NCBI GenBank assembly: GCA_947184155.2
Contig: CAMXCT020001662.1
Span: 62,001 to 126,000, forward strand
DNA from: Cladocopium goreaui
Taxonomy: Eukaryota; Sar; Dinophyceae; Suessiales; Symbiodiniaceae
Direction: 5' to 3'
DNA: 64,000 nt
In this document: piece after piece, positions 9,395 through 43,653 of the stretch
Position numbering within the stretch: the first letter of the stretch is position 1
Layout of the letters: every line of letters begins with the position of its first letter
The notes under the pieces: generated by a model
What the model was told of the DNA's origin: nothing
What the model saw: the letters and a program-made list of their open reading frames with translations, nothing else
The model's database searches: none
Program-made: the position numbers and the translations under genes

Positions 9395-9406
9395 TTGTTG
9401 TTGTTC

Positions 9407-9438
<32 letters not shown>

Positions 9439-10200: not shown

Positions 10201-10231
<31 letters not shown>

Positions 10232-10992: not shown

Positions 10993-11023
<31 letters not shown>

Positions 11024-23574: not shown

Positions 23575-24172
23575 AACAAAGGTACTAGGGGATATTAAAC
23601 TCCCACCCCCGTTAAACTTTACATACAGTTGGGAAGATCAACAAAGGTACTAGGGAATATTAAACTCCCACCACCGGTAAACTTTACATTCAATTGGGAA
23701 GATCAACAAAGGTACTAGGTAATATTAAACTCCCACCCCCGTTAAACTTTACATTCGTTGAAGATCTTCAATAAGGGTTCAATTCTCCCATCCCCGTTAA
23801 ACATCTACATTCATTGAAGATCTTCAATAAGGGTTTAATTCTCCCATTTTCCCACCCCCGTTAAACTTCTACATTCATTGAAGATCTTCAATAAGGGTTT
23901 AATTCTCCCATTCTCCCACCCCAGTTAAACTTCTACATTCATTGAAGATCTTCAATAAGGGTTTAATTCTCCCACCCCCGATAAATTTCTACATTCATTG
24001 AACATCTTCAATAAAGGTTTAATTCTCCCACCCCCGTTAAATTTCTACATTCATTGAAGATCTTCAATAAGGGTTTAATTCTCCCATTCTCCCACCCCAG
24101 TTAAACTTCTACATTCATTGAAGATCTTCAATAAGGGTTTACTTCTCCAACCCCCGTTAAACTTCTACGATG
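23575..24172. repeat. Minisatellite array 1
   Basis: Imperfect repeats of about 49-60 bp. Each contains ATTGAAGATCTTCAAT, a perfect 16-bp palindrome, plus CCCACCCCCGTTAAAC. The first three units are a diverged variant with ACAAAGGTACTAGG. Confidence 0.85.
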
Positions 24173-25393
24173 AACCCCGGGCCGAAGAACAGCAAGAACA
24201 CGGCAGTCACCTTCGCAAGGAAAAAGTACAGAAACAAAAGAACAAAACTGCAAGGCCAAAAAAAAAACACCCGCCTGCATTGGCCTGCGCCACGGCAAAC
24301 CAAAATGCCACCTCAACGCTGTTGGACCACGAAAGCCACGGAGAATCCTGAGCAAAACCAAGAGAGTGGGGGAGAGAGGGAGAAGAAAAAAAAGCGAAAG
24401 AAAACCCAACAAAGAATCACCAACGCGACAAAACACAGTCTGAGAGCAAAGCCCGAGGATTGAGCGCCACATGTTCCCAAACGTACGTCCGGCGGGCGCC
24501 CTTGGGTTTCACACAGAAATCCAAGCACGCCGCGCCGCGAAACAAAGGACCTGAGTCAAGCAAAACAAGACACAGAGGAAGGAGAAAAAAAAACGCACAC
24601 AGAAAGCACACATGAAAAAGTCAAACGAACAACAGCAATCCGACCTGAGGGATAGAGACGACCAAAAGTACGCCCACCCGCAGGATAGGCACCAACCCTC
24701 CAAGACGACAAGATTTCACAACAATGCAATATGCTATGTTTTAAAGAAAAAAGCAAACTTCTTCAACCTACTGCGACAACAACATATGCCTGTCCGCCCA
24801 TAACCAGCCTCAGGAACAGCAACAGCCTCACAACAACGTGGCAAAAAACAAGACAGCAACAAAAGGAAAAACAAGGATGCCGGCTGTCTCGCCGCCCCGG
24901 TCAACGACTGATTTTCCATTTTTTTTTTATTTTCTTCTCGCTGTGGTTTCGGAGTGATGCACAGTCTGTTTCACCTGAACCAGAGCTTCAAATTCACTGT
25001 GTTTTCCAAGGCTTTTTGTTCCTCTTTTAAAATGTACTGTTTTTTCCATGGAAAGTCAGGTTTTTTTTTAAGGTCCGAAAAAACAAAAAAGTTTATCTTT
25101 TTGGAGTTTATGCAGGAGATATACATTTACACATATCTATCTATCTATCTACCTACCTATCTATCTATCTATCTACCTACCTATCTATCTATCATCTATC
25201 TATCTATCTATCTATCTATATCCATGTGCTTGTACATCGACCGCTCAATATTGTGATTTCCATGCGAGACAACAACAACATGTTGAATGATGAATCGGCT
25301 ATCTCTTTTCTGCGTTCTCTAGCGCCACAGCACTTCAGGCAACTCCTGCAGCACACTCGTTTTGAGAGCTGCATTGTGCCTCCACTGATAAGA
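24173..25393. repeat. Tandem unit copy 1, left part
   Basis: It matches 40949-42123 nearly base for base, apart from a short indel near 24675 and different (CTAT)n lengths (about 25130-25218 here, 41900-41950 there). No gene is recognised; open frames here are also present in the second copy but look non-coding. The unit is broken after 25397 by the 11.8-kb transposon. Confidence 0.85.
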
Positions 25394-25397
25394 GTAC
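25394..25397. repeat. Target-site duplication, left copy (GTAC)
   Basis: GTAC precedes the left end of the 11.8-kb transposon and is repeated at its right end. The empty site has one copy at 42124-42127. Confidence 0.88.
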
Positions 25398-25905
25398 CTT
25401 ATGGACCGTTTCTACTTATCCTACTTAAAGTAACTTAGGTTTACTTAACCTACTTAATAACAACTTATTTCTACTTATCTTTAATTGAATTTTGAATACT
25501 AAAGATAAGTAGAAATAAGTAACTTAAACTAGGTTATAAGTAGAAATAAGTAGAAACGATGTAAAAATCATAGTTTTCTCCAAAAACACAGGTTTTATGA
25601 AAAACCTTGTTTTTTGTGCTTCACAAAGACGTTTCACGACAGTTCAAACACAATATATTGCGTGCATGTAAAGAATCTTTGGCCAAAGAAATGCTATTTT
25701 TTTGATGTGCTGTTACACTGCTCACATGACATGAGCGGGCACACCGCGGTTTTTCGTGTGAAATGAGCGGTCACACCGCTTTGTTTGGTGACATGAGCGG
25801 GCACACCGCTTTCTGTGACATGAGCGGGCACACCGCTTTGTGTGTACACAAGCATGTAGCAAGCAAGACTGCGGTCAATTTTTTGATCTCCATGCTGCTT
25901 TAGAC

Positions 25906-26328
25906 TTAATCAGAAATCATTTTGTCGATTTCTGTACTCAGGGACAGCACTTCGTTGAACAGCGCCGGGTCGAAGTGCTTCAGGCTCGGGAGGACATCCT
26001 GGATGATCTCGATGTCTTTTTTGAAGGCACGGCGCCTGTATGGGTTCATTTTCTTCAGCAACTGAGATGGGTCTCCAAGGGCCACAGGCGGGCATGCCAT
26101 TCCATCGGCATCAATGTCGTGCCCAGAAGTTCCACCCAGCCTGCATTGAGTCATTGTTATCAGCACCCACAGGTTGCTGAGACACTCAGTTTGTGGAGTG
26201 CGACCAAGTTCGGTGCAGACTGAGCGGCAAAATTCCCGGCATGCTTCCAAGCGTTCTTGTTTTTCAGGTGGCCAAGCGTCAACTTCGGCAGCAATCTGGC
26301 ATGCCAACAAAAAGAGCGCTTCCAGCAT
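25906..26328 (-). CDS. 140-aa protein or C-terminal exon at the transposon's left end
   Basis: An ATG at 26328 opens a 140-residue frame ending in TGA-type stop at 25906. It starts MLEALFLLACQIAAEVDAWP, has a cysteine-rich middle (CREFCRSVC) and ends SLSTEIDKMISD. A possible acceptor (CGTAG) lies about 36 bases before the ATG, so this may be the last exon of the transposase-like gene and not a separate gene. Downstream, four AGCGG palindromes (25734-25837) fill the space to the subterminal repeats. No family recognised. Confidence 0.55.
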   Translation of the reverse strand: MLEALFLLACQIAAEVDAWPPEKQERLEACREFCRSVCTELGRTPQTECLSNLWVLITMTQCRLGGTSGHDIDADGMACPPVALGDPSQLLKKMNPYRRRAFKKDIEIIQDVLPSLKHFDPALFNEVLSLSTEIDKMISD

Positions 26329-26489
26329 GGCACTTTTCGCGACGCAGCTCTTGTCTTTCTACGTTTGAGACACAAATGTTCTGCAGGTATTAACAATTTC
26401 AAGGATCAGCAGAAGCTTCTATAGTCACGGTGATACAAGAGCATCCAAGTGAGACCCAAGTGAACTTGTGATCACAGCCTTTTTTTTCA

Positions 26490-26627
26490 GCGCAAGCACG
26501 TGATATACATCTTGTCGATGGAGAACCGGTACCATGTAGGAATGGTATATGCTTGAGTTGTTGAGACCGCTGCAGTGACAACATCGGTTGTAACTCGCCA
26601 AATAGATCCCCATGTCTTCCTCTCGAC
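26490..26627 (-). CDS. Transposase-like gene, next exon candidate
   Basis: After acceptor GCAAG the phase-0 frame reads VERKTWGSIWRVTTDVVTAA followed by VSTTQAYTIPTWYRF. The other two minus frames are also open here, so the frame is uncertain. The position between two better-supported pieces suggests it belongs to the same transcript. Confidence 0.35.
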
Positions 26628-26667
26628 CTTGCTTGAAGGTGTGCAAAATCTTTCAATGGTAAGTAAT

Positions 26668-26870
26668 GCTAAATTGTTTTGGGAAATGAGACAATACCAA
26701 GAAAGTAGGAACATGTAAGCAATGTTCGGGCCCAGCAACGAATGCCAACTTGGTGTAGCGCAGAAAAAGGCCATGGTCCGGCTGTGAGAACCACTCAGAG
26801 ACGATGCCAGCTTCGTGCTGCCAACACAAGATGTCGCCTTGCCTGATTTCGCAAGCCAGCAGGTGGCAAC
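26668..26870 (-). CDS. Transposase-like gene, following exon
   Basis: After acceptor TCTAAG a frame with two leading bases reads CHLLACEIRQGDILCWQHEA then GIVSEWFSQPDHGLFLRYTK, and on through a hydrophobic stretch, about 67 residues. It lies directly downstream of the main transposase exon on the same strand. The stretch has no internal stop until after the likely donor near 26668. The junction to the main exon was not fixed. Confidence 0.5.
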
Positions 26871-27029
26871 CTTAGATATACACGATAGCTGGGATGCCTT
26901 TTGCAACAATGTGTTGACTTGCGCATGAATACAACAAGAAGCGTGAAACATGTGAAGGTTTTAATGCAGATAAATGTTAACAATTTTATTTATATATCTG
27001 CGCCTAAAGCGGACACACCGCTGGAAATC

Positions 27030-28801
27030 TGTAAATGTGGGAAGCAGCAACAAGAAATGGTAACCATATACGACAGCGAGATACGTTGGCTTGTCTGGAG
27101 ACTGGTAGTCGCGAGAAAGATTTTGTCATCCAAGCTGGCTTCTTTGATGGGCGGAAGCAGTTCCCAAAAAGGCAGCCCATGCTTCTTGACAATGTCTAGA
27201 CTTGTTTGCAGCAGCCGGCAAAGCACAGATGCGGAAAAACTTTCGTGGTCTCTGACTTGCCCCACTTGCCTGTCAGCAACCCCAGATTTGTACAACCGAT
27301 GCTTCGACTCCAGTGGTTCGCAGTTCACCGGCACACCAGCAGCCAACCATTGTGTGGGGATATGCATTCGGTGATGGTGCTTGGGCTTGTGCTGCTCACC
27401 ATATGCCGCTGCAAACAGCGTTTGGTGCTTTTGCTGTAGGGCAGCAAAATGCTGCATGGATGCTTCGTGAAGGGGGTAGAGGCCATGAGATATTTCTCGA
27501 ATGAAGGATACGATGTTGCACAGACACCGAAAGGATTCGACACAAGCGGGTGGCACACGGCTCGCTGGCTCTATGAGAGTTTCCATGTAGTACCGGACCA
27601 ATGGTACCAACGCTGCTGTCTGGTGGGCCTCGCCTTTAAAGTTGTCGTCACTGAACATCTTGGCATTGAGCAAATTTTTCACATAGTTTTGTGTTTTGCC
27701 ACTGGCCTTCAGACCCATCCACTGATCAGAAGCTACGGCTCCTTGGAGAATTTCCAGCGTCACATGAGTATGATCAAAAACAGATTGCAAAAATATGGCA
27801 AGCTCCCAGCTCGCGCATCCATTTGTCATGTAGCAGTGCATAGTGTCATTCATGACACGTGAAGGAGGGAGCTTTGTTCTTTCAGCTTCTGAAAACATCA
27901 AGGACGCCTCATCGAAGACAATTCCCGAAGCTTTCTCATAGATCTCCCTCTCCGCCTTCGTTCTGAAGCTCTTCAATTTGTCACAATGGCCAAAGATCTC
28001 TTGGTCTGTGCTGACTTTGAAGCCACCTGATGCCCCAACATCCTTCCATGTGCTGTCATTGAGGAAGCTTGAAGAAGTTGCCTTCACGACGTTGGAGCAA
28101 AGGACGCAAGGTCTGAGACCTGCGCTCCCCTTGAGCGAAAACACCGACCTGATGGCGTCATTGTGCCCCAGAAACCAAGCTTTTTGGTTTTGTTTGAAGT
28201 GGACCTCTGGAGTCAGCAACCAGCCAGCTTCATGCTCACCGCTGACCAGGTGTTCCAAAATGGATTTCATGATTGCTGAGCTACCTCCCACGATTGCGGA
28301 GCTGCCTTGCAAACATGCTGATTGCACGACGCAGATAACAATCCACATCGAAGGGCTTTTGAGGTGATGCCAGCACTGCAACCAGGACATGTACCATATG
28401 TTTGCCTTGCGCAATTTTTCCACAGACAATATGTTTCCTGCCTGGCACTCATCGCAATAAAAAATGGGCGTCAAAACGCCAGTACCAAGCAGCGCCCGTG
28501 CTAAAGCCTTTGTGAATGCCGGCGACTCATGTGCCATTCTCTGCAAGGTTGGTTTCAAATCCACAATGGGTAGCACCACCTGCCCACCTTCATAGGTAGG
28601 AAATGCCACGTTGATGGTAGCCTCTTTCCATGGCTGCAGCTCCTTGTCCACGATTCTTTGGAAACTTCCCCTTGCAATTTGTTCGTCCTCAGCATGCCAG
28701 AGGTTCCAAAGCTGGTTCACAGCTCTTTCGGAGGCTCCTCGAACCGACAGGCCACGCGCAACTTGGTCACGCGCCTCACATGTGACCTTTCTCTTTGGCA
28801 T
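27030..28801 (-). CDS. Transposase-like protein, main exon
   Basis: An ATG at 28801 opens a long frame starting MPKRKVTCEA, a basic N-terminus. Visible motifs: YCDEC at residues 115-119 followed by QAGNILSVEKLRKAN; a 'KGSAGLRPCVLC' stretch at about 224-235 that looks like a zinc knuckle; NDTMHCY at 318-324 (aspartate 319); and CEPLESKHR at 494-502. Asp117, Asp319 and Glu495 or Glu498 could be a DDE-type triad, but this is my inference. The frame remains open to 26990, past a copy of the AGCGG palindrome at 27008, so the exon probably ends before it, around 27.03-27.08 kb. It is the largest gene in the element and the best candidate for the enzyme that moves it. I cannot name the family. Confidence 0.7.
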
Positions 28802-29408
28802 CGCGAAGGCATGATCAAAAGATTCAATACACAACCAAATGTATCTGTATGGAGACATAATGAGTAAATGGCTTTGAGTTGGAAATTGATATATGGACAT
28901 TGAGATAGGTAGATGTACAGATTGATATATGGATAGATGGATAATTGGACTGACAGATATATAGTATATCCATATCATGTATTGTCAACTGTTGAAACTT
29001 GACATCTTCAAGTGCTTGTCACAAAAGCCACACAATATATATTTAGGAGCAGAATATGTCTGAGTTGTGCATGCGACAGTAACCAAGTTGTGCATCCTAT
29101 AGTGACATGAGCGGCCATACCGCTAATAAGGAGCGGTCACACCGTTGTGCAATGAGCAGCCACAGCACTGTACAATCAGCGGTCACACCGCTTTGCATTC
29201 TTCTATAGAAACAAGAACTCAAGGTGGAATGGATCTCTGCATGTGAAAAACCGCATGGGAAGCCAAGACATGTAGCAAAAGATTTTGATTCTTTTTGCCA
29301 TGCTCTTTTGCCACTGCTGCGTCGAAAGAAACGCAACAATCAATGCGGAATTGCGAGGATCGAATTTCGAGTCATCAAATCTAATTGCACTGTCAAATGT
29401 GTCAACTA

Positions 29409-29646
29409 TCACTTGGCCTTGGCCTTGGCGCTACGCTTTGCCGCCGGTGCAGCTTTCGGTGCTGCCGCCTTGGCCTCCCTGGCTTCGCGAGACTTCTCTG
29501 TGAAAATCGCCCGGCAATCTTTCAAAACTGCTTGGGCGGCTTTGAGCTGGTCATTGCAACAGGAGTCAGCATCAAAGCCTTCAAGCAAGCTGGAACTTTT
29601 AGTCCCATCAGAGGCGCTGATGAGCTGGGTGGCACCTCAATGCAAT
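29409..29646 (-). CDS. Transposon: C-terminal exon, alanine/lysine-rich
   Basis: After acceptor TTGAG a frame with two leading bases reads ATQLISASDGTKSSSLLEGF, continues LKAAQAVLKDCRAIFTEKSR and ends AAKRSAKAKAK before TGA at 29409-29411. The basic tail resembles a nuclear or nucleic-acid-binding extension. It may be the last exon of gene 2 or of an otherwise unseen gene. I found no donor that joins it in phase to the exon ending near 29900. Confidence 0.5.
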
Positions 29647-29899
29647 CAACATTGAGTGGGCACATCGCGGTTTACAGTCAATGGTTATTAAGTAAAAGAA
29701 AAATTATAAACGCCTTTCACTCGGCACATTAGAATATTTTGAATCTAGTACGGTACATGAACACAAGTCTCAACAAGAAACAAGCGGACACACCGCTGCA
29801 TGGCGAATCCCTGTATTATATCAATTTTCGCTTTTAAGATTGAACCGTTACATTGTTGACAAAAAGAAGCGGACACACCGCTGCCAGGGACACAAATTC

Positions 29900-30415
29900 T
29901 TAGGCGGCCCAGTGGCGCTGCTTGAAGTAATTCATCTGCGTAACAGCCTGCTTCAGGCCATCAGTCAGCTTGTCAGGAATCAACTCGGGATTCTTCTCAA
30001 CTTTGGCGGAGACGGTCGCCAAAGAATGGCAAACGGAGTTGAGGCTGTTGATGTACCTGGTAGCCTTGCCAACCTCTTGCTTCCACTTTTGGTCCCGCTC
30101 TCGTGCAGCCCTTCGGGCAGCCACCGCGGCGTCGTCCTCTTTCTTCGTTTTTGTAGCCTTCTGCGGCTTCCCTTCTCCAATCACCATGGGGCCTTCATCC
30201 TCGGATGGAATGCTCCAAACATCGTCGTCGATCGCGAAGGCAGAGCTGCCTGGACCATCTGCTGGGGGTGAAGCAGAATCTGCCGGCTTCTTGCCTTTGA
30301 CCTTCTTCTTCTCCTTCAAGCGGTTCTCCTTCTCCAAGATCTCTTTCTCCACGGTACCACGAATGTCATCATCGGAGATCGTGGACAGTGGTGCTGTCCA
30401 GACTTCACCAAAGAC
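29900..30415 (-). CDS. Transposon gene 2, exon 2: charged coiled-coil
   Basis: After acceptor TGTCAG the phase-0 frame reads VFGEVWTAPLSTISDDDIRG, then a long run rich in Lys and Glu (KEILEKENRLKEKKKVKGKK), an acidic linker, and a helical end (KATRYINSLNSVCHSLATVS). It reaches a stop at 29900. The frame joins exon 1 (donor TTA|GTATGC at 30517) in phase 0. With both exons the protein would have about 318 residues. Whether the stop is used, or a further exon at 29409 is spliced on, is unresolved. Confidence 0.65.
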   Translation of the reverse strand, partial: VFGEVWTAPLSTISDDDIRGTVEKEILEKENRLKEKKKVKGKKPADSASPPADGPGSSAFAIDDDVWSIPSEDEGPMVIGEGKPQKATKTKKEDDAAVAARRAARERDQKWKQEVGKATRYINSLNSVCHSLATVSAKVEKNPELIPDKLTDGLKQAVTQMNYFKQRHWAA

Positions 30416-30516
30416 CTGACAAAGACGATTTTTCTTTCAGGTGCAAAAGCATTCTTTGGAAAATAGTTGAAACAAGAATTAAACATGAATTATGTGTGCC
30501 CCAATGTACTGCATAC

Positions 30517-30957
30517 TAATCTCCAAAGGGCCTTGTCCTCGCGCATCTCCCCGTTGGCTTCAATTCGCTTCGTGTCGAAGCCCCTTGTTGCCCACACTGA
30601 CAGAGGGAGAAACTCACGATTGCACCTGATCCTTCTTTGCTCCGTATGGAAGTGGGTCATCTGTGAGACCAGGGAACTTCTAACGTGGCTCCACCGTCCA
30701 TTTTTGGGCGCGCACTTGATGGCACTTCCAGCATGCTTGAAGAATTGCACCTGCGACTCTGGTGTCATATTGTTCCAGGATTCCGGTAATCCGCCCATGT
30801 GACGGTAAAGGATCTGGTACACATTGGTGCAGGACTTGCATTGCCAATTTGCGCCTCTGAGAACAGCGCTATCCTTTGCGCTACAATCCAGGCCGCACTT
30901 AATGCAAGGAAACACGGTGTCATCTGGCTGCGTCTCGGCGATCGACTGCGCAGACAT
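30517..30957 (-). CDS. Transposon gene 2, exon 1: zinc-ribbon-like
   Basis: An ATG at 30957 starts MSAQSIAETQPDDTVFPCIK. Two CxxC-type pairs follow, CIKCGLDC at about residues 18-25 and CKSC about 20 residues later, suggesting a zinc-binding fold. The remainder is basic and rich in aromatic residues. The frame is open upstream of the ATG, so an earlier start or exon is possible. A DNA- or RNA-binding accessory role in transposition is plausible but is only inference. Confidence 0.65.
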
Positions 30958-31059
30958 GGCCAGTTGTAGCAACTTGGGTTTTACCAAGTCAAGGCAGCCA
31001 AAAAGTTCTCCAAAAAGAACACTGGACGCTGTAGAGGACCTTGAAACATCTATGTTTCG

Positions 31060-31400
31060 CCTACAGAAATCAAATAGATATCCTATAGATATCCGATAGA
31101 TAGCAATAGATATCTGATAGATATCCGATAGATAGCAATAGATATCGGATAGATATCCGATAGATATCAATAGATAGCAATAGATAGCAATAGATAGCAG
31201 ATAGATATTAGGATAGATATTTCTCATGATTTTGAAAGATAGCAATAGATAGCAATAGATAGCAATAGATATCAGGAAAGATATTCCAAGTGAGTTTGAT
31301 AGATAGCAATAGATAGCAATAGATAGCAATAGATAGCAGCATCGGTATCCGATAGATATCAAGCATAGACTTATATAACAGATAGATTCCAGTAGATGTT
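31060..31400. repeat. GATAGATAGCAATA microsatellite field
   Basis: Irregular repeats of GATAGATAGCAATA and GATATCCGATA inside the transposon, upstream of gene 2. It makes the open frame of gene 2 seem to run on to 31362. Confidence 0.85.
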
Positions 31401-31710
31401 CGATGCATGTCCGTTCCTCATATATGTAGAAACTCTTACTTCACAGCGGCCCAAACAAGCCCAAGAAAAAAAAATCAAACTTTAACAGAGCACACCTATA
31501 GCGGGCACACCGCTTTGACCAAATGAGAGCGCAAAAACATAGTATACCTTTGCAGCGGAGCACACCGCTCGCAGGCACACCGCTGTCGCTATACATCTGG
31601 CTCTTTGGCGGAAGCACCGCTCTTTCTGTTTGAAAATGTCTTGGAAAAACGCAGCTCCAGGAAACATCGATGAGCCTTTTTTTTACCGGGCAAGTTGCTG
31701 TGTCAAGCTC

Positions 31711-31843
31711 TTAGACCTTGCGAGCAGGCTTCTTCATGTGCGCAGCCGATGCTGGCTTCTTCATCTTGTTTTGCACCTTCTGCTTGGGTCGCTGCTGCGT
31801 CTCATGAGGAAGTCCCCGAGGCAGGCCATTTCCCCGACTCATC
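31711..31843 (-). CDS. Transposon gene 3, last exon: basic tail
   Basis: The exon is 133 nt, from acceptor GTCAG. It reads MSRGNGLPRGLPHETQQRPK then QKVQNKMKKPASAAHMKKPA and ends RKV before TAA. It is strongly basic. It joins the 31933 exon in phase through a GC donor (CAAG|GCTTGC). Confidence 0.65.
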
Positions 31844-31932
31844 CTGACAACCATCTAGATCATCTATATAGGGTGGAACAGGGAATAAACTGTGAGAAGA
31901 AAAATCTGAAGACGAGGCTCTGTTGCGCAAGC

Positions 31933-32196
31933 CTTGCGTCTTCATCACTGCTGCCCTCTACATCTCCGGAGCTGCCAAAATCACCCCAGAGTTCTTCGAG
32001 GGTTAGCTTCCTCATCTCTGGTCCAATCACGGTGTCTTCCTTCACAGCTGCAATTTGGCATGACCCAAGGATCATGGACGGATTGCCGCTGCTCAAATCA
32101 CAGAAGCCAAGAAATGCATCCATGACCTCAGGTTGCGCGAGACACATGTTGAAAAGCCAGTCTAGTATATAGGGTTTTGAAAAAGCTGAGCTCATT
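31933..32196 (-). CDS. Transposon gene 3, exon
   Basis: The exon is 264 nt, after acceptor AATAG. It begins MSSAFSKPYILDWLFNMCLA and ends with an acidic run, SSGDVEGSSDEDAR. Phase 2 entry and exit fit both neighbours. The preceding intron (32197-32239) is only 43 bp and contains the AGCGG palindrome. No domain recognised. Confidence 0.65.
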
Positions 32197-32239
32197 CTAT
32201 TAAAAAGAGATTGCTTTCAAGCGGTCACACCGCTATCAC
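32197..32239 (-). other. 43-bp intron built around the palindrome
   Basis: The intron starts GTGATAGCGG and ends TTTTTAATAG. The palindrome fills bases 6-20. Flanking exons match in phase (phase 2). It is the shortest intron in the window. Confidence 0.6.
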
Positions 32240-32467
32240 CTTCTCTCCAAATTTTGTTTCATCGGTATTTGTTCAGACCCTGCCTTGTGGAAGACTGTGC
32301 GTGGACCCCATCTGCCAGGAATCTTGCCAATCTCTTGGCCAGAGGTAGGTACGCTCACCTTCATCTCCTTCTTCTCCCTCAGCCAGGTAAACTCAAAGCA
32401 CAAGGTACCCTCAGGGACACCTGTGGGACGAACCACAAAAGCATCAGCTGATCGAACAGATTGGTAC
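32240..32467 (-). CDS. Transposon gene 3, exon
   Basis: The exon is 228 nt, from acceptor CTGCAG to donor AGAAG|GTGATAG. It reads YQSVRSADAFVVRPTGVPEG then TLCFEFTWLREKKEMKVSVP and ends QIPMKQNLERR. The donor lies five bases before the AGCGG palindrome. Phases fit both neighbours. Function unknown. Confidence 0.65.
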
Positions 32468-32675
32468 CTGCAGCGTGTACATAGCGCTGAGAGAAATTAT
32501 GTTTATGTGTTCGAAAAATCGGTATAATATTGAAGACGCTAGACATTGATTGCCTTCTCTCTTCTCTCTTCAACTGGTTGGGAGAAATAGCATTATATCC
32601 AAGTGTTTCTTTATTATATCATATTCATGAATATATACCTCCTTTTAATGACTTGTGAAGACAAACGACATGCGC

Positions 32676-32961
32676 CAGCTGGGCTTGTGCTTCAAGTTCT
32701 CGTGGTTAACCAAGGTGAACTTCAAAGAAGAAGTCCCATCTCCCATCCACAAAACTTTGTCGTTGAGTCTGTGCCGGGTCTCTTGAGCTGGAGGGAGGCT
32801 CTGAAAGTTCTTCGGCTTCGCCCATGAATCCCAAAGCCGCTCTTCTGTGAGCTCCTCCATTTCTCTCCATGTGATGAAATGCCACTCAAATTTGGTCATT
32901 GGAATGTCAGATTCGGTGTTCCTGCGCAAGGCGGTGGACATCCAACTAGACACAGTCAAAC
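32676..32961 (-). CDS. Transposon gene 3, first recognised exon
   Basis: The exon is 286 nt, after acceptor GAGCAG. It reads LTVSSWMSTALRRNTESDIP then MTKFEWHFITWREMEELTEE. The best end is a GC donor (CTG|GCGCAT) giving phase 2, which fits the next exon. No start codon was found, so a short upstream exon is expected in 33.0-33.3 kb, where three palindromes lie. From here to 31711 the gene has 303 or more residues. Confidence 0.6.
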
Positions 32962-33119
32962 CTGCTCTGAGCCTGATGAAGTCATGGAACTATAGCAAAG
33001 GCAAGTGCCATATGAAAGCGGGAGCACCGCTATATACGATGATCTACTATAGCGGACACACCGCTTTGGATACAACAACTCCTAAGCGGACACACCGCTG
33101 TACCAGCAACAAGAAGGAC

Positions 33120-33196
33120 ATATACATATACATATCCATATATACACAAACATACATACATACACACATATATATATATAATGCATACATACATAC
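33120..33196. repeat. CATA/TA microsatellite
   Basis: CATACATACATAC and TATATATATA runs between transposon genes 3 and 4. Confidence 0.75.
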
Positions 33197-33326
33197 CAGG
33201 TAGTTACCAAACTCTAACAACTCAAGTTCCTATAGTGCAAGTGATACTTGGGCCGCAACTTGAAAGGCCATCTTTTTTGCACTTCTCAGCCAAGGATCCT
33301 TGCAAGCTCCATCCGTGACATATCCC

Positions 33327-33427
33327 TCAGCGTGTAGAGAAAGCACGCTGCACAGCACGGTGGCCAGCTGCCCTGGCTTTCAATTTGATAGCATCCTTTT
33401 TCAGGCTGCTGTCCTTCACCAACCTAC
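33327..33427 (-). CDS. Transposon gene 4, last exon
   Basis: The exon is 101 nt, from acceptor CTTAG. It reads RLVKDSSLKKDAIKLKARAA then GHRAVQRAFSTR and a TGA stop. Length and phase fit the donor CTC|GTTTGC of the preceding exon exactly. It is a basic helix-rich C-terminus. Confidence 0.65.
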
Positions 33428-33485
33428 CTAAGCAAGGTTGATCAAAGATTCGGGAAATTGTCTCTTTAAGGGAAAAAGCGCAAAC

Positions 33486-34011
33486 GAGCTGACAGAAATC
33501 CAATCAAGATGCTTCGGGTTTGGTGGTAAGCCCTGCTGTAGACATCCTTCGCTGTCATTTGAAGCTCCCGTTTGTCCACCTTGGTCTTCTTGACCTGCGG
33601 CTTGGCCTTGATCTCCTGGCCCTTGCGAGTCTTCTTCAGCTTGTCTTTGTCCGCCTTCTGAGCTCGCGTCTTCGACGTCTGGTCCTTCTTCTTTGTGTTA
33701 TGCTTTCTGGTCTTGGCCTTCTGCTTCTCCTGTGGCTTCTTCACCTTGGCTTTGCTCGACGCCTTAACCGGGCAAGATGCCTTTGACTTGGCCTTGGGCT
33801 TTGCAGCCGCCACCTTTGGAGTAGCTCTGAGCATCTCTTTCTTCTCCACGTCACGGTTTTTCAAAGCTTCAGCCAACTTCTGCACTGCATCCCCCTCTAG
33901 CTCCTCTGTGAGCTCACCGCCATCTCCATCATTCGGCTCAGCTTCTTGACGATCGGGAAGATCTTGGTCAGGAACTGCGCACTGCTCTTCTGGCGCAGCT
34001 TCAATCTGGTC
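33486..34011 (-). CDS. Transposon gene 4, lysine-rich exon
   Basis: The exon is 526 nt, from acceptor GTTAG. It starts DQIEAAPEEQCAVPDQDLPD, an acidic stretch, and then becomes about 45% Lys/Ala/Arg (for example KAKTRKHNTKKKDQTSKTRA). It ends AKDVYSRAYHQTRSIL. The low-complexity basic part suggests an extended nucleic-acid-binding or nuclear region. Phase 0 in, phase 1 out. Confidence 0.7.
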
Positions 34012-34049
34012 CTAACATGGCACACCCGTGTACACATTAACATGTATAT

Positions 34050-34190
34050 GGGGAGAAACAGATAGATAGATAGAAAGATAGATAGATAGATAAATAGATA
34101 GATAGAAGTTAAACGCGTCTGCACAATATCTAATGTACATATATGCATATATATGTATGTATATATATATACATATATATATATACATGA
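34050..34190. repeat. GATA and TA microsatellites
   Basis: An AGATAGATAG run (34058-34110) and a TATATATA run (34140-34190) in the intron between the 34353 and 34011 exons. Confidence 0.8.
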
Positions 34191-34352
34191 GTAATGACAC
34201 ATGTTTCTTAGTCAGTGATAACAAACATGATAGCGGACATACCGCTCAAGCGGGCACACCGCTTCGATACAGTCACACCGTGAACTAAAGTGTCTTACAA
34301 TCAGCAAAGCTTGAACCTGAGAAATTCTTTCAAAAACATATATGGTGTCAAC

Positions 34353-34657
34353 TCCACCATCCTGGAGTGCCAGCATGCCCGGCGGTGAAGGCAGCGCGGG
34401 AAACTGCGGCGCAGCACCGCCCGAGCTAGCTGAAGAAGCCGGGGTCCTTGGAGACCCACTTGCATTCTGCCCCATGCGGAAAGCTAATTCCATCAGCTTC
34501 ATGTCCTTCTCCAACCCTGGGTCACTGGTCGCCTTCTGCTCAGCTGGTCCACGCCACCGCAACTTGGTGGAGCTAGCTGCCATCAAAAGCTCCTCCATCG
34601 GCAGTCCTTGATCGCTTAAATTCTCTCCAGGCCAATTCCACTCCAAAGAATTCACCC
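34353..34657 (-). CDS. Transposon gene 4, exon
   Basis: The exon is 305 nt, between acceptor TTTTCAG and donor GGA|GTTGAC. It reads VNSLEWNWPGENLSDQGLPM then EELLMAASSTKLRWRGPAEQ and ends in a Pro/Ser/Ala linker. It joins the exon before it across a 92-bp intron (34658-34749) and the lysine-rich exon after it in phase 0. Confidence 0.65.
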
Positions 34658-34749
34658 CTGAAAAAAATCACCGAATTCAGCAGAGACACTGCATGGAACA
34701 AACGGTTCGTGAACAAATGCTTGCAAATGATATTCTGCTGGTAGCTCAC

Positions 34750-35095
34750 GAGGCTCCCCAGGTAGAGTTAAGAGGTATTCCCCATAGTCCTGATCAGTGG
34801 CCCGGTTGAGCGCCTTGAAGCTTTTCCACTGCTTCTTCAAACCATTGATGAACTGGTAGAACTCAAAAGCGGTCAGAAGCCCTGCGCCCTCTGGCTTGGT
34901 CATCTGAAGAAGGTTTCCCAGGAGCGCGAATGTCCCTTCTGAGGGACACCTCAAACCTAAGAGCCAGCAGTGTTGAAATAACACTATCGCTGCCTTCTCG
35001 CGCGAGGATTGCTTCAGCCCATCCCATATGGGAGCGGTCAGGTAGCGGTGCAGAGAAGAATAATTCTGCTGCTTCCTCCGCTCTGCCATCTTGAT
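34750..35095 (-). CDS. Transposon gene 4, exon with possible start
   Basis: An ATG at 35089 starts MAERRKQQNYSSLHRYLTAP, and the helical sequence continues SREKAAIVLFQHCWLLGLRC. An acceptor (CTGTAG) six bases upstream means the exon could also be internal. From this ATG to the stop at 33327 the four exons give exactly 424 codons (423 residues). If the intron at 34658-34749 is kept, the frame stops soon after. Function not recognised. Confidence 0.65.
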
Positions 35096-35339
35096 CTACA
35101 GTTGCCTATATGGGAGAGTGAAACCGGAACAGCAAATGCTGCAGTCACTAGACATAGATTGCCACAATGGTATTATGTCTATCTAGTCTAGTTCACAAAA
35201 CCTGTTGCCTATATATAGCGTTCACACTGCTGAAGAGTTACAAGCGGACACACCGCTAGCCAACAAGACGAAAAAACCCTACAAGCGGACAAACCGCTTC
35301 GCCACAACATGCACAACCCTTTGAAGCCCTTTTTTTACC

Positions 35340-35498
35340 ACCATTCGGACCATTCGGACCATTCGGACCGTTCAGCTTCATTTTGCAGTCGCTTCGTCCA
35401 CCCGCCTCGTCCACGCCAGATTCCGAAGAGTCGCCATTGACGCTGCCTTGACGATTCTCCAACCTTGAAGTCGTAGATCCCTGTGGACGCATCCCCAC
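35340..35498 (-). CDS. Transposon exon candidate
   Basis: After acceptor TTTGAG the frame reads VGMRPQGSTTSRLENRQGSV and ends with three copies of Asn-Gly-Pro. The likely donor is GTAAAA near 35340. It may belong to gene 4 (with an unresolved phase) or to a separate upstream gene with the exons at 35998 and 36388. Confidence 0.4.
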
Positions 35499-35624
35499 CT
35501 CAAACAGGCTAGAGCATCAAACCAAAAGAAACCAAAAACAGAATTTCGGATATGCTGATATACTTTTGATTTTTTTTCGGCGACAGATACGTGTAGAACC
35601 AGACGCAAAATAACAAACTGCAAG

Positions 35625-35998
35625 TCAAGAAGCTCCGTGCTGGAGGAACCGGGTAGGGAGCAGCTGCCTTCACTCGCGTCCCAACGGTTGTAGGCATGGC
35701 TGGGACAGGTGGTGGGCGCGGCACACCCGGTGGATGTGGCACACCCAAAGAAGGTGGCACACCCAATGAAGGGCCCAGTGAAGGTGGGACTGCATCACTG
35801 GAAGAAGACGCACTTGCCGATACACTAGCAGCCATACCACCAATCGAAGCGACTTCAGGTGCCACATGGGATGTATGTGCGCTGCTTGTGGCCGCAAGAC
35901 CCGCTGTTGCATCACCAACACCTGGATCAACACTTGACCCCAATGTCAATCGCCATGGCACATTCTTTCCTCCTGCGTACAGCAAGCACTGCTTATAC
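35625..35998 (-). CDS. Transposon exon candidate, Pro/Ser-rich
   Basis: After acceptor TCTTAG the frame reads YKQCLLYAGGKNVPWRLTLG, then Ser/Ala-rich and proline-rich repeats (GVPPSLGVPHPPGVPRPPPV). The end is approximate. Low-complexity composition makes the function unclear. Confidence 0.45.
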
Positions 35999-36134
35999 CT
36001 AAGATTCCTCCTATATATATATACACACACACATCATTCCTCTCTATATATATATATATATATTACAAGCGGACACACCGCTAGCGGAGACACCGCTGCA
36101 TCCAACAAAACAAAAAAACATGAAATCCAGTAAA

Positions 36135-36388
36135 ACGACTCCTCCAGCTGCCGCAGATGCCGTGCAACCACTAGATGCCGACGCCCTTGCTGGTGCCTTT
36201 GGAGCAGCCTTGGGCAGAGCAGGCATCGGATCCGCTCTCCTAGCAGCATTTGCTGCCCGACTCTTGCAAATTGGCTGCGGCAGCTTGCGCTTCGGGCGAG
36301 GAGCCAAGTGAACAAGGGGTGGCTCACTTGGATTGGCAGCTGCTACTTCGGGTTCGGGCGCAGGTTCAGCTGGCAAAGCTTTATCCAT
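36135..36388 (-). CDS. Transposon exon candidate with start codon
   Basis: An ATG at 36388 starts MDKALPAEPAPEPEVAAANP, with a basic stretch APRPKRKLPQPICKSRAANA that could be a nuclear localisation signal. The left end is not resolved. Two palindromes (36068-36097) lie between this exon and the 35998 acceptor. It is probably the first exon of the right-most gene of the transposon. Confidence 0.5.
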
Positions 36389-37173
36389 TGCTAAGGCTCT
36401 ACGTTTCTTTTCTCTATACAGAAAAGCTTTTCACATTCATGACAATACACACACATCTATCTATATATCTATACCTATTATCTTTCTATCATATATATAT
36501 ATATACATATATCACTATCCATATTTGTTTGCTTGCCGCTGGCCGCACAGGAACTGTTCCGATTTGAGAGGGCAACCGTAAAATCACAGTTGCTGATCAA
36601 GAAAAACAACAGCGGCCACACCGCTATGTACCTACCAAAAAAGTTTGCAAGCTGAAAGCTACTACTAATAGCGGACACACCGCTACAATCCAATCTGATT
36701 CTGACAATATGAAACAGTATAACAAAGTATATAACATGTTGCACAAAGCACTTTTGAGTTTCTATTCGTAACTTCCTCAATGCAACATTTTCAATTTTTT
36801 GCACGCTAAATAGCAAAAGCCGTTTTTTAACATTTACAACTATTTTCGTGAAAAAAACAAAAAACGCAAGGAAAAAATAAGTAGGATAAGTAGAAATAAG
36901 TAGACCTAAGTAGAAATAAGTAGAAATAAGTAGATGTAAGTAGACTTACCCTACTTAGACATTCCGAAACTTTGTGAACTTAAATCTACTTATTTCTAGT
37001 TACTAAGTAGGTTAATCAGAATTAAATCCATATAAGTAGCGACTAAGTAGAATAAGTAAAAGTGTTAACTTAACCTACTTACTACAACTTAAAAGCTACT
37101 TATCCTACTTAAAACCATGTTAAAACCTACTTATAAGTAGGTTATAACTACGTAAGTAGGAACGGTCCATAAG

Positions 37174-37177
37174 GTAC
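37174..37177. repeat. Target-site duplication, right copy (GTAC)
   Basis: GTAC follows the right end of the transposon. The next bases, GCCCAATCCC, match the empty site from 42128 on. Confidence 0.88.
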
Positions 37178-38034
37178 GCCCAATCCCAACGAAGCCTATG
37201 CGTTTGTTGCATGCAACAACGGTGGCAACGACTGGTTCGAAATTCGAATTAGAAGAAGCAATGTCAAAGCTTCTAAGTCCATGATATCTTGAGATCCAGA
37301 CGGACGCAATGAATCCAGAGTGAAAACAACGAATCATAACCATTACATTCAAAATTCCACAAGATTGACAACATCAATCGTTCACTCACCTACCCCACAA
37401 TTATCCTAAGCCAAGCCGTCCGAACAAGTGCAACGCCACTGGCATCGAAAGTCCGAACCGTTGGAAGACATCGTAACATATGCATATCAATCCTTATGTA
37501 TATATATATATAAATCTATAACAGCTAATGTGCGTTTCAAAACATACAAGTGTTTGTCTCAAATTTGCCAAACGAATGTTGTATCGATATGAGCAATCTT
37601 CAAGAGCCTTGTTATTCCATTATAGTAATGAGTTAAAAAATATTATAAACCCCACTATGTCGTAAACCAAGTTCTGTTATTCCATCAAGGTGACCAAGTA
37701 CTAAATATTATAATCCACTCTAGGCCGGAAACAATGTAATGTTATTCTCTTATATGGATCAGTTCATAGTAATTGTAACTCCCTATTACGTCGGAAAATA
37801 TGGTATGTCATTCCATAATAGAAATCACTTACTAAATACTATAATACCAGTACATCGGCAACAGTTTAATGCGTGCCAGGCCCCTGAGTCGCGAACCTGC
37901 AGCGGAGAGAAGCCAAAGCAAGAGAACACATATGTTCCCATCATTTCACATCTATATAATACATATGGTATTATTAATATTATGATATAAACGGATCGAA
38001 AACCTATGCTGCAATGCAACACCCCACCCCATAT

Positions 38035-38640
38035 GCAACATAGCAACATGTAACGTGGCAAGCATTCCAGAGCTCTCGGCACCGTAGCAACATGTAACGT
38101 AGCAAGGATACCACAGGAGATCTCTGCAAGCATTCCAGAGATCTCTGCAGCGTAGCAACATGTAACGTGGCAAGCATTCCAGAGCTCTCGGCAGCGTAGC
38201 AACATGTAACGTGGCAAGCATTCCAGAGATCTCGAGATCTCGGCAGCGTAGCAACATGTAACGTGGCAAGCATTCCAGAGATCTCGGCAGCGTAGCAACA
38301 TGTAACGTAGCAAGGATACCACAGGAGATCTCTGCAAGCATTCCAGAGATCTCTGCAGCGTAGCAACATGTAACGTGGCAAGCATTCCAGAGCTCTCGGC
38401 AGCGTAGCAACATGTAACGTGGCAAGGATACCACAGGAGATCTCTGCAAGCATTCCAGAGATCTCGGCAGCGTAGCAACATGTAACGCGGCAAGCATTCC
38501 AGAGATCTCGGCAGCGTAGCAACATGTAACGTAGCAAGGATACCACAGGAGATCTCTGCAAGCATTCCAGAGCTCTCAGCACCGTAGCAACATGTAACGT
38601 GGCAAGCATTCCAGAGATCTCGGGAGCGTAGAAATATGTA
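38035..38640. repeat. Minisatellite with GAGATCTC core, copy 1
   Basis: Repeats of about 40-65 bp built from AGCAACATGTAACGTGGCAA and GCATTCCAGAGATCTCGGCA. They produce long false open frames on the minus strand. The array is copied at 42990-43590. Confidence 0.85.
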
Positions 38641-38668
38641 CTGTACGCACTAGACAGAACGTTAACAT

Positions 38669-38701
38669 CCCCACCCCACCCCACCCCCCCCACCCCACCC
38701 C
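38669..38701 (-). other. G-quadruplex-prone tract, copy 1
   Basis: Several CCCC runs separated by single A bases, which give GGGG runs on the minus strand. Repeated at 43621-43653. Confidence 0.75.
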
Positions 38702-39524
38702 AACATAATCCCCACGTCCCATTAGCAAAAATGTGCGTTTTATGAGCACGGTTTTCGATCCGTAGGCAAAAATAACAACCCTCGTGGAGGCGGCGAGTCA
38801 GCCGCCCACCAAAAACAACAACACAAAACAAAACAGAAATTAAAAAACACAACAAGCAAGAGATCATGTCCCGCCTCAGAAGACATCTTCCTCGACCTGA
38901 GAAAACACAACGTAAACTACACTCGCACATCAGGCACAAGATCGAAACAAAGAAACGCACATCAAAAAAAAATGACTGCTAGAACTTCAGAGGCAATCGA
39001 CAACTGCTCGAGAAACGAAAACATCAGAAGCAAAAGCACCAAAAAAAACACTCTGCTGAGGCCACTGCGAAGTGCGGGGCAAAGAATAGATCCAAAAACA
39101 CCCTTTAAAAGCGCTTGAAGAAACACACTGCGGACAAGCAACACACAATCTGCCTTGGTAACCCTTTCTGCAAACAACTTGGTAACACCCTCTCTCTACC
39201 GACATCCCCTTTGGTGGAAAAATTAAAACGACCCTGTCTTCACCCCTTTTCGTGAAACACAGACTTAGAAGAAAAAAACATTTGTCCTTAACCGGTGGTC
39301 CAATTTTGTTGTTCCCTAAACTTACAAGTGAGAAACACAAGTCAACCGTTAACACCTGTCCCCACTCCGTCCTACACCCGAGGCCCGAGGCCCTTCGCAC
39401 TCCAGCACTGTTTTTCAAAGGCGTCGGACGCCGAGTAATGGAAAATGCCCCGCTTATGGGGGGGTTGTTCAATCGGTCCCCCACTGATCTAAAAAATCCC
39501 CTCTTATGGGGGGTGACATGCAAT

Positions 39525-39585
39525 CTTGTTTGAGCTCAGCTATGGGCGGAGCAAGCCTCCACCCTCATAGCTGAGCTCAAACAAG
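39525..39585. repeat. Perfect hairpin, 20-bp arms
   Basis: CTTGTTTGAGCTCAGCTATG and its exact inverse surround a 21-base loop. It is repeated in the second tandem unit near 44479-44539. Confidence 0.85.
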
Positions 39586-39594
39586 AAACTCCGT

Positions 39595-39635
39595 CCGGCA
39601 GTTGCAGCTGCCCACGCAGCAGCTGCAACTGCCGG
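39595..39635. repeat. Perfect hairpin, 17-bp arms
   Basis: CCGGCAGTTGCAGCTGC and its exact inverse surround a 7-base loop, ten bases after the previous hairpin. The second unit's copy has a 2-base insertion in the right arm. Confidence 0.85.
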
Positions 39636-40508
39636 AATTCAGCGCCACTAAACGGAAGCTGGACCTGCCACCTGCGCCCCTCGCGCAGGTGGAGGCGAAG
39701 AACATCCTCCGCTGCAGCATAGGCCCAGGCCCCAAGCCGCGTCTCGGCGCGAAAATTCACCCAAGATGCTCGCTCCTCCAGCCAGGTTGAACCATACCAC
39801 GTGGCAACTCTGACCTCAGAATAGCTATACTTTCAAAAACCAGTAATCCAAAAGAACCCCCGCAAAAAAAGTACCAATCTTATGGAAACATTATCAGCAC
39901 CAATCATTATGCATAGTAACGTCTTGGAATCGAAATGCTTACAACTGGATGCAGGGATGATCCATACATATCCCCTTGTAACAAAAAGAAAAGACCCAAC
40001 CAAAACAAAACCATACAAAAAAGCATCATCAAAAACGCCAAGGCACAGCATCATGCGGCAGGTTAAAAAAACCTAGCCTGGCTAGGAACCAAAAGGGCCC
40101 CTGAAGTCTACGATGCCCGAGAGCAACCTCAAACAGGGTTGACGTCACAACCAGAAGAAAAACATTTTCTGAAACTAACTTTAAAGCTGCGTCCTGTAAA
40201 CAACAACTTTAAAAAAAGACTTCTCGACCCCTTTAAAGTTCACCCTGGCCTGCAGCATCCAGAGGGCCCTCGGCTCCAGCATTTGCAGCAATGAAATGCT
40301 GCTGGACACGACAAGGGCAAAGGTGTTCATACTGAGAACAAAGAGAAAAAAACGGGGCGAGGGCGGGAACAAACGAATTAGCCAAAAGCTGCGATGTGCT
40401 TCATGTGGTGTCATGCCGTGAACCCGCTGGATTGGACCAAACCCCGGAAGCTGGAAGAAACACAAAGGGTAACATTACAAAGCCCTTTGAATCCATTATT
40501 TTCGGAGG

Positions 40509-40945
40509 ATACCACCCACCCCCGTTAAACTTCTACATTCATTGAACATCTTCAATAAAGGTTTAATTCTCCCACCCCCTTATAATTTCTACATTCATTG
40601 AAGATCTTCAATAAGGGTTTAATTCTCCCATTCTCCCACCCCCGTTAAACTTCTACATTCATTGAAGATCTTCAATAAGGGTTTAATTCTCCCACCCCCG
40701 TTAAACTGCTACATTCATTGAAGATCTTCAATAAAGGTTTAATTCTCCCACCCCCGTTAAAGTTCTATATTCATTGGAGATCTTCAATAAGGGTTTAATT
40801 CTCCCACCCCCGTTAAAGTTCTATATTCATTGAAGATCTTCAATAAGGGTTTAATTCTCCCATTCTCCCACCCCAGTTAAACTTCTACATTCATTGAAGA
40901 TCTTCAATAAGGGTTTACTTCTCCAACCCCCGTTAAACTTCTACG
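40509..40945. repeat. Minisatellite array 2
   Basis: The same ATTGAAGATCTTCAAT-bearing repeat as at 23575-24172. It separates the two tandem units. Confidence 0.88.
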
Positions 40946-42989
40946 ATGAACCCCGGGCCGAAGAACAGCAAGAACACGGCAGTCACCTTCGCAAGGAAAA
41001 AGTACAGAAACAAAAGAACAAAACTGCAAGGCAAAAAAAAAAACACCCGCCTGCATTGGCCTGCGCCACGGCAAACCAAAATGCCACCTCAACGCTGTTG
41101 GACCACGAAAGCCACGGAGAATCCTGAGCAAAACCAAGAGAGTGGGGGAGAGAGGGAGAAGAAAAAAAAGAAAGAAAACCCAACAAAGAATCACCAACGC
41201 GACAAAACACAGTCTGAGAGCAAAGCCCGAGGATTGAGCGCCACATGTTCCCAAACGTACGTCCGGCGGGCGCCCTTGGGTTTCACACAGAAATCCAAGC
41301 ACGCCGCGCCGCGAAACAAAGGACCTGAGTCAAGCAAAACAAGACACAGAGGAAGGAGAAAAAAAAACGCACACAGAAAGCACACATGAAAAAGTCAAAC
41401 GAACAACAGCAATCCGACCTGAGGGATAGAGACGACCAAAAGTACGCCCACTATAGGCACCAACCCTCCAAGACGACAAGATTTCACAACAATGCAATAT
41501 GCTATGTTTTAAAGAAAAAAGCAAACTTCTTCAACCTACTGCGACAACAACATATGCCTGTCCGCCCATAACCAGCCTCAGGAACAGCAACAGCCTCACA
41601 ACAACGTGGCAAAAAACAAGACAGCAACAAAAGGAAAAACAAGGATGCCGGCTGTCTCGCCGCCCCGGTCAACGACTGATTTTCCTTTTTTTTTTAATTT
41701 TCTTCTCGCTGTGGTTTCGGAGTGATGCACAGTCTGTTTCACCTGAACCAGAGCTTCAAATTCACTGTGTTTTCCAAGGCTTTTTGTTCCTCTTTTAAAA
41801 TGTACTGGTTTTTTCCATGGAAAGTCAGGTTTTTTTTAAGGTCCGAAAAAACAAAAAAAGTTTATCTTTTTGGAGTTTATGCAGGAGATATACATTTACA
41901 CATATCTATCTATCTATCTACCTATCTATCTATCTATCTATCTATCTATATCCATGTGCTTGTACATCGACCGCTCAATATTGTGATTTCCATGCGAGAC
42001 AACAACAACATGTTGAATGATGAATCGGCTATCTCTTTTCTGCGTTCTCTAGCGCCACAGCACTTCAGGCAACTCCTGCAGCACACTCGTTTTGAGAGCT
42101 GCATTGTGCCTCCGCTGATAAGAGTACGCCCAATCCCAACGAAAACTATGCGTTTGTTGCATGCAACAACGGTGGCAACGACTGGTTCGAAATTCGAATT
42201 AGAAGAAGCAATGTCAAAGCTGCTAAGTCCATGATATCTTGAGATCCAGACGGACGCAATGAATCCAGAGTGAAAACAACGAATCATAACCATTACATTC
42301 AAAATTCCACAAGATTGACAACATCAATCGTTCACTCACCTACCCCACAATTATCCTAAGCCAAGCCGTCCGAACAAGTGCAACGCCACTGGCATCGAAA
42401 GTCCGAACCGTTGGAAGACATCGTAACATATGCATATCAATCCTTATGTATATATATATATATAAATCTATAACAGCTAACGTGCGTTTCAAAACATACA
42501 AGTGTTTGTCTCAAACTTGCCAAACGAATGTTGTATCGATATGAGCAATCTTCAAGAGCCTTGTTATTCCATTATAGTAATGAGTTAAAAAATATTATAA
42601 ACCCCACTATGTCGTAAACCAAGTTCTGTTATTCCATCAAGGTGACCAAGTACTAAATATTATAATCCACTCTAGGTCGGAAACAATGTAATGTTATTCT
42701 CTTATATGGATCAGTTCATAGTAATTGTAACTCCCTATTACGTCGGAAAATATGGTATGTCATTCCATAATAGAAATCACTTACTAAATACTATAATACC
42801 AGTACATCGGCAACAATTTAATGCGTGCCAGGCCCCTGAGTCGCGAACCTGCAGCGGAGAGAAGCCAAAGCAAGAGAACACATATGTTCCCATCATTTCA
42901 CATCTATATAATACATATGGTATTATTAATATTATGATATAAACGGATCGAAAACCTATGCTGCAATGCAACACCCCACCCCATATGCA

Positions 42990-43590
42990 ACGTAGCAACA
43001 TGTAACGTGGCAAGCATTCCAGAGCTCTCGGCACCGTAGCAACATGTAACGTAGCAAGGATACCACAGGAGATCTCTGCAAGCATTCCAGAGATCTCTGC
43101 AGCGTAGCAACATGTAACGTGGCAAGCATTCCAGAGCTCTCGGCAGCGTAGCAACATGTAACGTGGCAAGCATTCCAGAGATCTCGAGATCTCGGCAGCG
43201 TAGCAACATGTAACGTGGCAAGCATTCCAGAGATCTCGGCAGCGTAGCAACATGTAACGTAGCAAGGATACCACAGGAGATCTCTGCAAGCATTCCAGAG
43301 ATCTCTGCAGCGTAGCAACATGTAACGTGGCAAGCATTCCAGAGCTCTCGGCAGCGTAGCAACATGTAACGTGGCAAGGATACCACAGGAGATCTCTGCA
43401 AGCATTCCAGAGATCTCGGCAGCGTAGCAACATGTAACGCGGCAAGCATTCCAGAGATCTCGGCAGCGTAGCAACATGTAACGTAGCAAGGATACCACAG
43501 GAGATCTCTGCAAGCATTCCAGAGCTCTCAGCACCGTAGCAACATGTAACGTGGCAAGCATTCCAGAGATCTCGGGAGCGTAGAAATATG
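42990..43590. repeat. Minisatellite with GAGATCTC core, copy 2
   Basis: It has the same order of unit variants as 38035-38640, so the whole array was duplicated with the tandem unit. Confidence 0.85.
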
Positions 43591-43620
43591 TACTGTACGC
43601 ACTAGACAGAACGTTAACAT

Positions 43621-43653
43621 CCCCACCCCACCCCACCCCCCCCACCCCACCCC
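43621..43653 (-). other. G-quadruplex-prone tract, copy 2
   Basis: Same sequence as 38669-38701 in the second tandem unit. Confidence 0.75.

Follow-up and report, generated by a model that had tools for sequence, protein, structure and literature searches.

A stretch of 64,000 nucleotides from the dinoflagellate Cladocopium goreaui (contig C1662, positions 62001-126000; hereafter the window) carries two tandem host units, one of which is interrupted by about 11.8 kb of additional DNA. Is this insert a mobile element, to which kind does it belong, and are the genes that it carries parts of the element or passengers? The insert is a complete transposon of 11,778 bp whose mobility is demonstrated by empty sites and by further copies in the assembly (1.17 Gb in 6,202 contigs, to which all genome-wide searches below refer). 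It is very probably a DNA transposon that moves by cut and paste and falls within the CMCT clade (EnSpm/CACTA-Mirage-Chapaev-Transib/RAG1), in a branch that duplicates TA upon insertion.

Ends, target duplication and mobility

25397..37174: complete transposon, 11,778 bp (ends, empty site and other copies)
25395..25396: left TA of the target duplication (window sequence, empty-site alignment)
37175..37176: right TA of the target duplication (window sequence, empty-site alignment)
25397..25410, plus strand: left terminal inverted repeat (TIR) CCTTATGGACCGTT, 14 bp
37161..37174, minus strand: right TIR, 14 bp
42121..42131: unoccupied target AGAGTACGCCC within the second host unit
25397..25646: subterminal region of the left end, with CTACTTA seven times over the two strands
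36725..37174: subterminal region of the right end, with CTACTTA 18 times over the two strands

The initial annotation of this locus described inverted repeats (13 bases), their spacing and an unoccupied target at 42121, all of which are borne out here. Its statement that both ends are known to the base also holds, with the limits themselves corrected to 25397-37174 and a TIR of CCTTATGGACCGTT. Once the element and one TA are removed, the flanks rejoin as exactly AAGAGTACGCCC, which is the empty site, and the rejoined flanks agree with the empty unit at 2,915 of 2,939 ungapped aligned bases, with a few gaps of up to 39 bases. The host units correspond at 37169-40945 and 42118-45899 (99.5%) and at 23732-25397 and 40515-42127 (97-98%), and the same target is also found uninterrupted on contig C1907 (97%). 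Both host units hold tandem repeats that include GAGATCTC and measure about 44-112 bp (38034-38640 and 42986-43592).

Two further copies, on contigs C5992 and C3510, are about 98-99% identical to the window element and lie in different flanks. The junctions read GAGTA/CCTTATGG...CCATAAGG/TACGCC in the window, CTAGTA/CC...GG/TAGGAA in C5992 and TTGTA/CC...GG/TAAGAA in C3510, and the TIR consensus of the window family is CCTTATGG(A/G)CCGTT. These shared ends, variable flanks and constant TA are the signs of mobility that the initial annotation had named, and its opposite case, in which all copies share the same flanks, falls away with the two copies located elsewhere. The duplication that it reported as GTAC is actually TA: around the 13-mers the C5992 copy has GTAC and GTAG and the C3510 copy GTAC and GTAA, so the GTAC of the window is a coincidence of its target. 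GTAC and GTA were also rejected because no G precedes the left TA in the relatives C533, C5796 and C1963.

A 2-bp duplication flanks all six elements whose ends were located independently of any duplication requirement, being TA in the window, C5992, C3510 and C3109 and CA in the relatives C402 and C3891. For C358, C533 and C5796 the end search itself demanded a matching 2-bp flank, as did the pairing of ends in the short elements C1963 and C860, and these five are therefore evidence for the TIR more than for the duplication. In the C4605 group, for which left ends only were read, these mostly follow TA and in one case GC. The first end search found no ends for the C2090 relative.

Inward pairs of the exact 13-mer within 15 kb occur twice in the genome, against 0.004 expected by chance, and thus are not a chance product; a third pair has one mismatch in one end. 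The other exact 13-mer matches (C2, C11, C1583, C3839) were rejected as ends, having neither an exact inward partner nor a preceding TAC. Joined through a single TA, the C5992 flanks recur on C3246 and on C1001, identical over all 116 bases, and those of C3510 find full-length uninterrupted matches at eight places (92-99%), one of them on the same contig; the C3510 site is a dispersed repeat. All three insertions hence lie in repeated host sequence with empty counterparts, and misassembly does not explain the insertion. The simplest order at the window locus, as annotated at first, is that the host unit was duplicated before the element inserted, and exchange with an empty allele is a possible alternative.

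Within the element the heptamer CTACTTA is confined to the ends, with 7 copies in the leftmost 250 bp, 18 in the rightmost 450 bp and none in the interior; the remaining 52 kb of the window hold three copies. C1963 and C860 each carry a short element (1.7 and 1.6 kb) whose related ends are flanked by TA, and a transposase search of both gave a single insignificant match only. Such elements would be expected if the ends are mobilised in trans. A simple-repeat array of ATAGATAGCA type lies inside the window element at 31073-31362, and related repeats are found in the C860 short element.

The transposase and its placement

26993..28801, minus strand: main open frame of the transposase, 603 aa counted from the likely ATG, RAG1-like fold
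28163..28165, minus strand: transposase codon 213, His in the window copy (33-row alignment, sister copies)

The best structural matches of the transposase are RAG1, BbRAGL and Transib. In an alignment of 33 transposases, D117 and D213 are each conserved in 31 rows and E498 in 32, and we infer that these are the catalytic residues of a DDE triad. C232xxC235 is present in 33/33 rows and H475 and H480, separated by four residues, in 32/33, and both pairs fall between the second D and the E. As described in passages of PMC12730594, CMCT transposases have a DDE triad in an RNase H-like fold with C(2)C and H(3-4)H between the second D and E, and their elements have 2-5 bp target duplications and, in most cases, 5'-CA..TG-3' ends. 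The family shows the triad and the RAG1-like fold (the window copy with His at 213), C(2)C, H(3-4)H and a duplication within this range (TA or CA).

Several observations weigh against this placement or against an active window copy. The transposase has no sequence-level match to any transposase family, so that the clade assignment rests on fold and motif residues; the structural ranking was obtained with VIA-align, which re-orders Foldseek's own list, and families outside the VIA-align list may match as well. The window family has CC..GG ends in place of the usual CA..TG, and CAGGATGG..CCATCCTG ends occur in C358 and C533 only. Position 213 is Asp in 31 of the 33 rows and in both sister copies, but His in the window and Gly in one further row; by structural inference the window enzyme thus probably lacks a catalytic Asp. 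The C5992 transposase is frame-broken, being split over two frames with a stop, and that of C3510 is open. PF02992 (Transposase_21) matched none of the 33 transposases; a genome search with it also returned nothing, which is uninformative since 0 of 14 controls were detected either.

Independent movement of the window copy is improbable, and its transposition would call for enzyme supplied in trans. The word intact in the initial annotation applies to the ends and not to the enzyme. The window and C3510 transposases differ by six synonymous and six non-synonymous changes (ratio of non-synonymous to synonymous rates, dN/dS, 0.28); the ratio is 0.25-0.67 in six other close pairs, on few differences, and an eighth, distant pair is saturated. 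In the tree of the 33 transposases, the window sequence groups with P0001 and P0002, both from other sources. The protein collection yielded 26 transposase relatives, of which two are named Durusdinium trenchii and three carry the prefix Skav, used for Fugacium kawagutii; these names by themselves make a host from the Symbiodiniaceae very probable. A viral origin was rejected, as none of 21 pattern matches in viral contigs was a relative.

That the element is a Transib/RAG-type transposon proper, belonging to the lineage that gave rise to RAG1 and not to a separate branch of the clade, would agree with the top structural matches. RAG1 would nevertheless head such a list for any clade member, because no CACTA-type structure is known in the PDB. 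Known RAG-bearing transposons also carry more than one gene, but Transibs duplicate 5 bp (passages of PMC4411706), and the 2 bp found in six of six elements make this assignment unlikely. A Tc1/mariner-type element would account for the TA duplication of the window family; the RAG1-like fold, the conserved C2C and H4H residues and the duplicated CA that flanks the relatives C402 and C3891 render it extremely unlikely.

As a transposon of the TA-duplicating CMCT branch, the element would be cut at its ends by a RAG1-fold DDE transposase and inserted at TA with a 2-base stagger. A companion DNA-binding protein acting on the subterminal repeats might assist the transposase, as TnpA does on the subterminal repeats of En/Spm, and the oriented motif described below most likely serves self-recognition by an element protein.

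Companion genes

26098..26316, minus strand: conserved coding block in frame 25906-26358 (genome matches, conservation)
26481..26630, minus strand: conserved coding block downstream of the transposase frame (conservation)
26734..26871, minus strand: conserved coding block, a further exon or gene, downstream of the transposase frame (conservation)
29412..30879 (approximate), minus strand: zinc-protein gene (blocks 30538-30879, 30269-30418, 29963-30175, 29412-29576)
31723..32893, minus strand: middle gene or genes (blocks 32663-32893, 32275-32376, 31723-31797)
33318..35089, minus strand: gene A (blocks 34658-35089, 34428-34544, 33511-33807, 33318-33428)
35359..36307, minus strand: upstream conserved blocks (36149-36307, 35632-35715, 35359-35493)

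Exon limits of these genes were drawn from conservation alone. The zinc protein, whose query sequence starts at 30957, is named for its CxxC pairs and not for a domain match; no Pfam domain above cut-off was found in nine non-transposase frames of the window or in the C402 proteins. We infer that the companion genes are probably core parts of the transposon, that is, co-inherited machinery and not captured cargo. The C3109 relative (13.0 kb), with a transposase 50% identical to that of the window, is collinear with the window element over 18 conserved blocks and both ends, and the C402 relative (10.1 kb, transposase about 30% identical) keeps the gene order with longer frames. Genome searches returned 57 matches to gene A, 146 to the zinc frame and 12 to a third companion frame. 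Of the 71 transposase loci, 51 have the zinc frame and 24 have gene A on their own strand no more than 20 kb upstream, and 45 of the 57 gene A matches stand upstream of a zinc match on the same strand.

Counting against this view, 94 of the 146 zinc matches and 32 of the 57 gene A matches have no scored transposase within 20 kb, one companion match at the C1181 locus is out of order, and the exon limits, number and expression of the companion genes are putative. The matches with no transposase nearby, like the lack of any recognised domain above cut-off, would suit captured host genes that are dispensable for movement. Capture is hard to reconcile with a shared gene set, gene order and strand in relatives whose transposases are 43-50% identical, or with the order and strand of gene A and the zinc gene being kept even in the 30%-identical C402 group, and we regard it as quite unlikely.

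The element had been annotated with at least three spliced genes, with which the 18 collinear conserved coding blocks are consistent on the basis of conservation, and its load had been called unusual. The load is indeed multi-gene; the genes recur as core parts and the CACTA group includes large elements with several genes, so that the epithet stands only in part.

An oriented motif in the non-coding gaps

25735..36685, plus strand: oriented motif (13-base core GCGGNCAYACCGC), 19 copies, none in a conserved coding block

The 15-base motif reads AGCGG-N-CA-Y-ACCGCT on the plus strand and AGCGGTRTGNCCGCT in gene sense. All 19 copies of the core in the window are within the element and on one strand, as are 20 of 20 in C3109, and with up to one mismatch the sense and antisense counts are 22 and 0 in the window and 36 and 0 in C3109. 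None of the 19 falls in the conserved coding blocks, which make up 4,852 of 11,778 bp (chance about 4e-5); one copy, at 27009, falls within the transposase frame, in the tail that is not conserved. Of 19 gaps between and around the blocks, 11 hold the motif, and the eight motif-free ones are all shorter than 290 bp.

Genome-wide, 359 exact matches were found against 12 for the reversed pattern. Among 100 motif matches listed, 68 have a gene match of known strand no more than 4 kb away, all 68 in the same orientation, and 32 have no placeable gene strand. Eighteen pieces, some closely related, hold 181 sense and 12 antisense matches at up to two mismatches, with every antisense match having two; positions 5 and 6 are invariant and position 10 is free. 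In the C402 group the core was found once and an exact match not at all.

The motif is most likely, by analogy with VANC-bound motifs, a self-recognition tag for a predicted element protein. The main rival, that it is passive and arose by local tandem duplication or as introner-like intron sequence, is a plausible explanation somewhat short of an even chance. Some copies do stand in short tandem arrays (25727-25841), and introners are common in dinoflagellates (passages of PMC11453091), but a passive origin leaves the orientation shared by all placeable copies, the genome-wide excess over the reversed pattern and the avoidance of coding blocks to be explained.

The strict orientation hints at reading on the transcript. 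Four sense variants fold into a 5-6-bp stem at -6.0 to -7.3 kcal/mol, and the reverse complement folds about as well (-6.1). Among 40 changed stem pairs in the 181 matches, many of them related by descent, 19 are one-sided changes that keep a G-U pair, 17 break the pair and four are two-sided changes that keep pairing. This shows no clear compensation, in keeping with a passive motif, and by our reasoning is about what transitions alone would give. A fuller scheme is offered tentatively, as doubtful: a RAG1-fold dinoflagellate branch might recognise itself by sequence, a companion (perhaps the zinc protein) reading about 20 15-base tags per element, placed in the longer gaps of the coding sequence and always in gene sense. 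A hairpin in introns and spacers, read on the transcript and not on DNA, might then single out RNA from the element itself to be spliced, exported or spared from silencing.

Other features of the window

A 12-bp tandem array of TTGTTGTTCTTG (137 copies, 9395-11022) causes a strong strand bias of composition in that interval, and a 10-bp array of AATCCATATA (79 copies, 63216-64000) reaches the window edge. No spliced-leader relic was identified in the window, and tRNA and Rfam searches of it gave no matches.

Comparison with known systems

Most descriptions of RAG1-type transposases and related enzymes come from animals, plants and fungi (PMC12730594, in part). A recently mobile multi-gene branch in a dinoflagellate would widen the group that gave rise to V(D)J recombination, provides genomes whose DNA transposons are poorly classified with a family of which ends, targets and empty sites are defined, and offers in its gap-only oriented motif a testable handle on transposon self-recognition. 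Passages of a review treat dinoflagellate DNA transposons only in general terms (PMC11453091), and the Merlin elements of Symbiodinium belong to a different superfamily (passages of PMC8101967). By title, the open-access literature yielded no such family in dinoflagellates, with most subscription papers and Repbase outside the scope of that search.

Transib, ProtoRAG and RAG1 provide the best structural match, with catalytic and zinc residues alike in RAG1 numbering; Transib differs in its duplication of 5 bp (PMC4411706, in part) against 2 bp here. With EnSpm/CACTA elements, of which subterminal repeats are a feature, the window element shares large multi-gene size, short TIRs, such repeats and the clade residues. 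Fungal EnSpm elements have a 3-bp duplication and CAC..GTG ends (passages of PMC12730594) in contrast to the 2-bp TA and CC..GG here, and none of the 33 aligned transposases gave a PF02992 match.

The transposase of VANDAL21 in Arabidopsis is unrelated to the RAG1-fold enzyme, and the likeness to that system is in the family-specific short motif piled up in non-coding parts of a multi-gene element. VANDAL21 elements encode a VANC protein that binds a short motif of their non-coding sequence, located in introns, between genes and near the termini (passages of PMC5735166), and VANC proteins induce the loss of silent marks (abstract of PMC10398659). The motif described here differs in being 15 bp long, a small inverted repeat and confined to one strand, and a protein that binds it is putative.

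ESTA elements also duplicate TA, have a transposase recognised as RAG1-like with CMCT residues, and in some cases carry companion genes. They come from another kingdom, their companion set differs, and no TET/JBP gene was recognised in the window element. Likened by features and not by sequences, the window element, with its TA duplication and RAG1-like enzyme, would appear to work most like ESTA.

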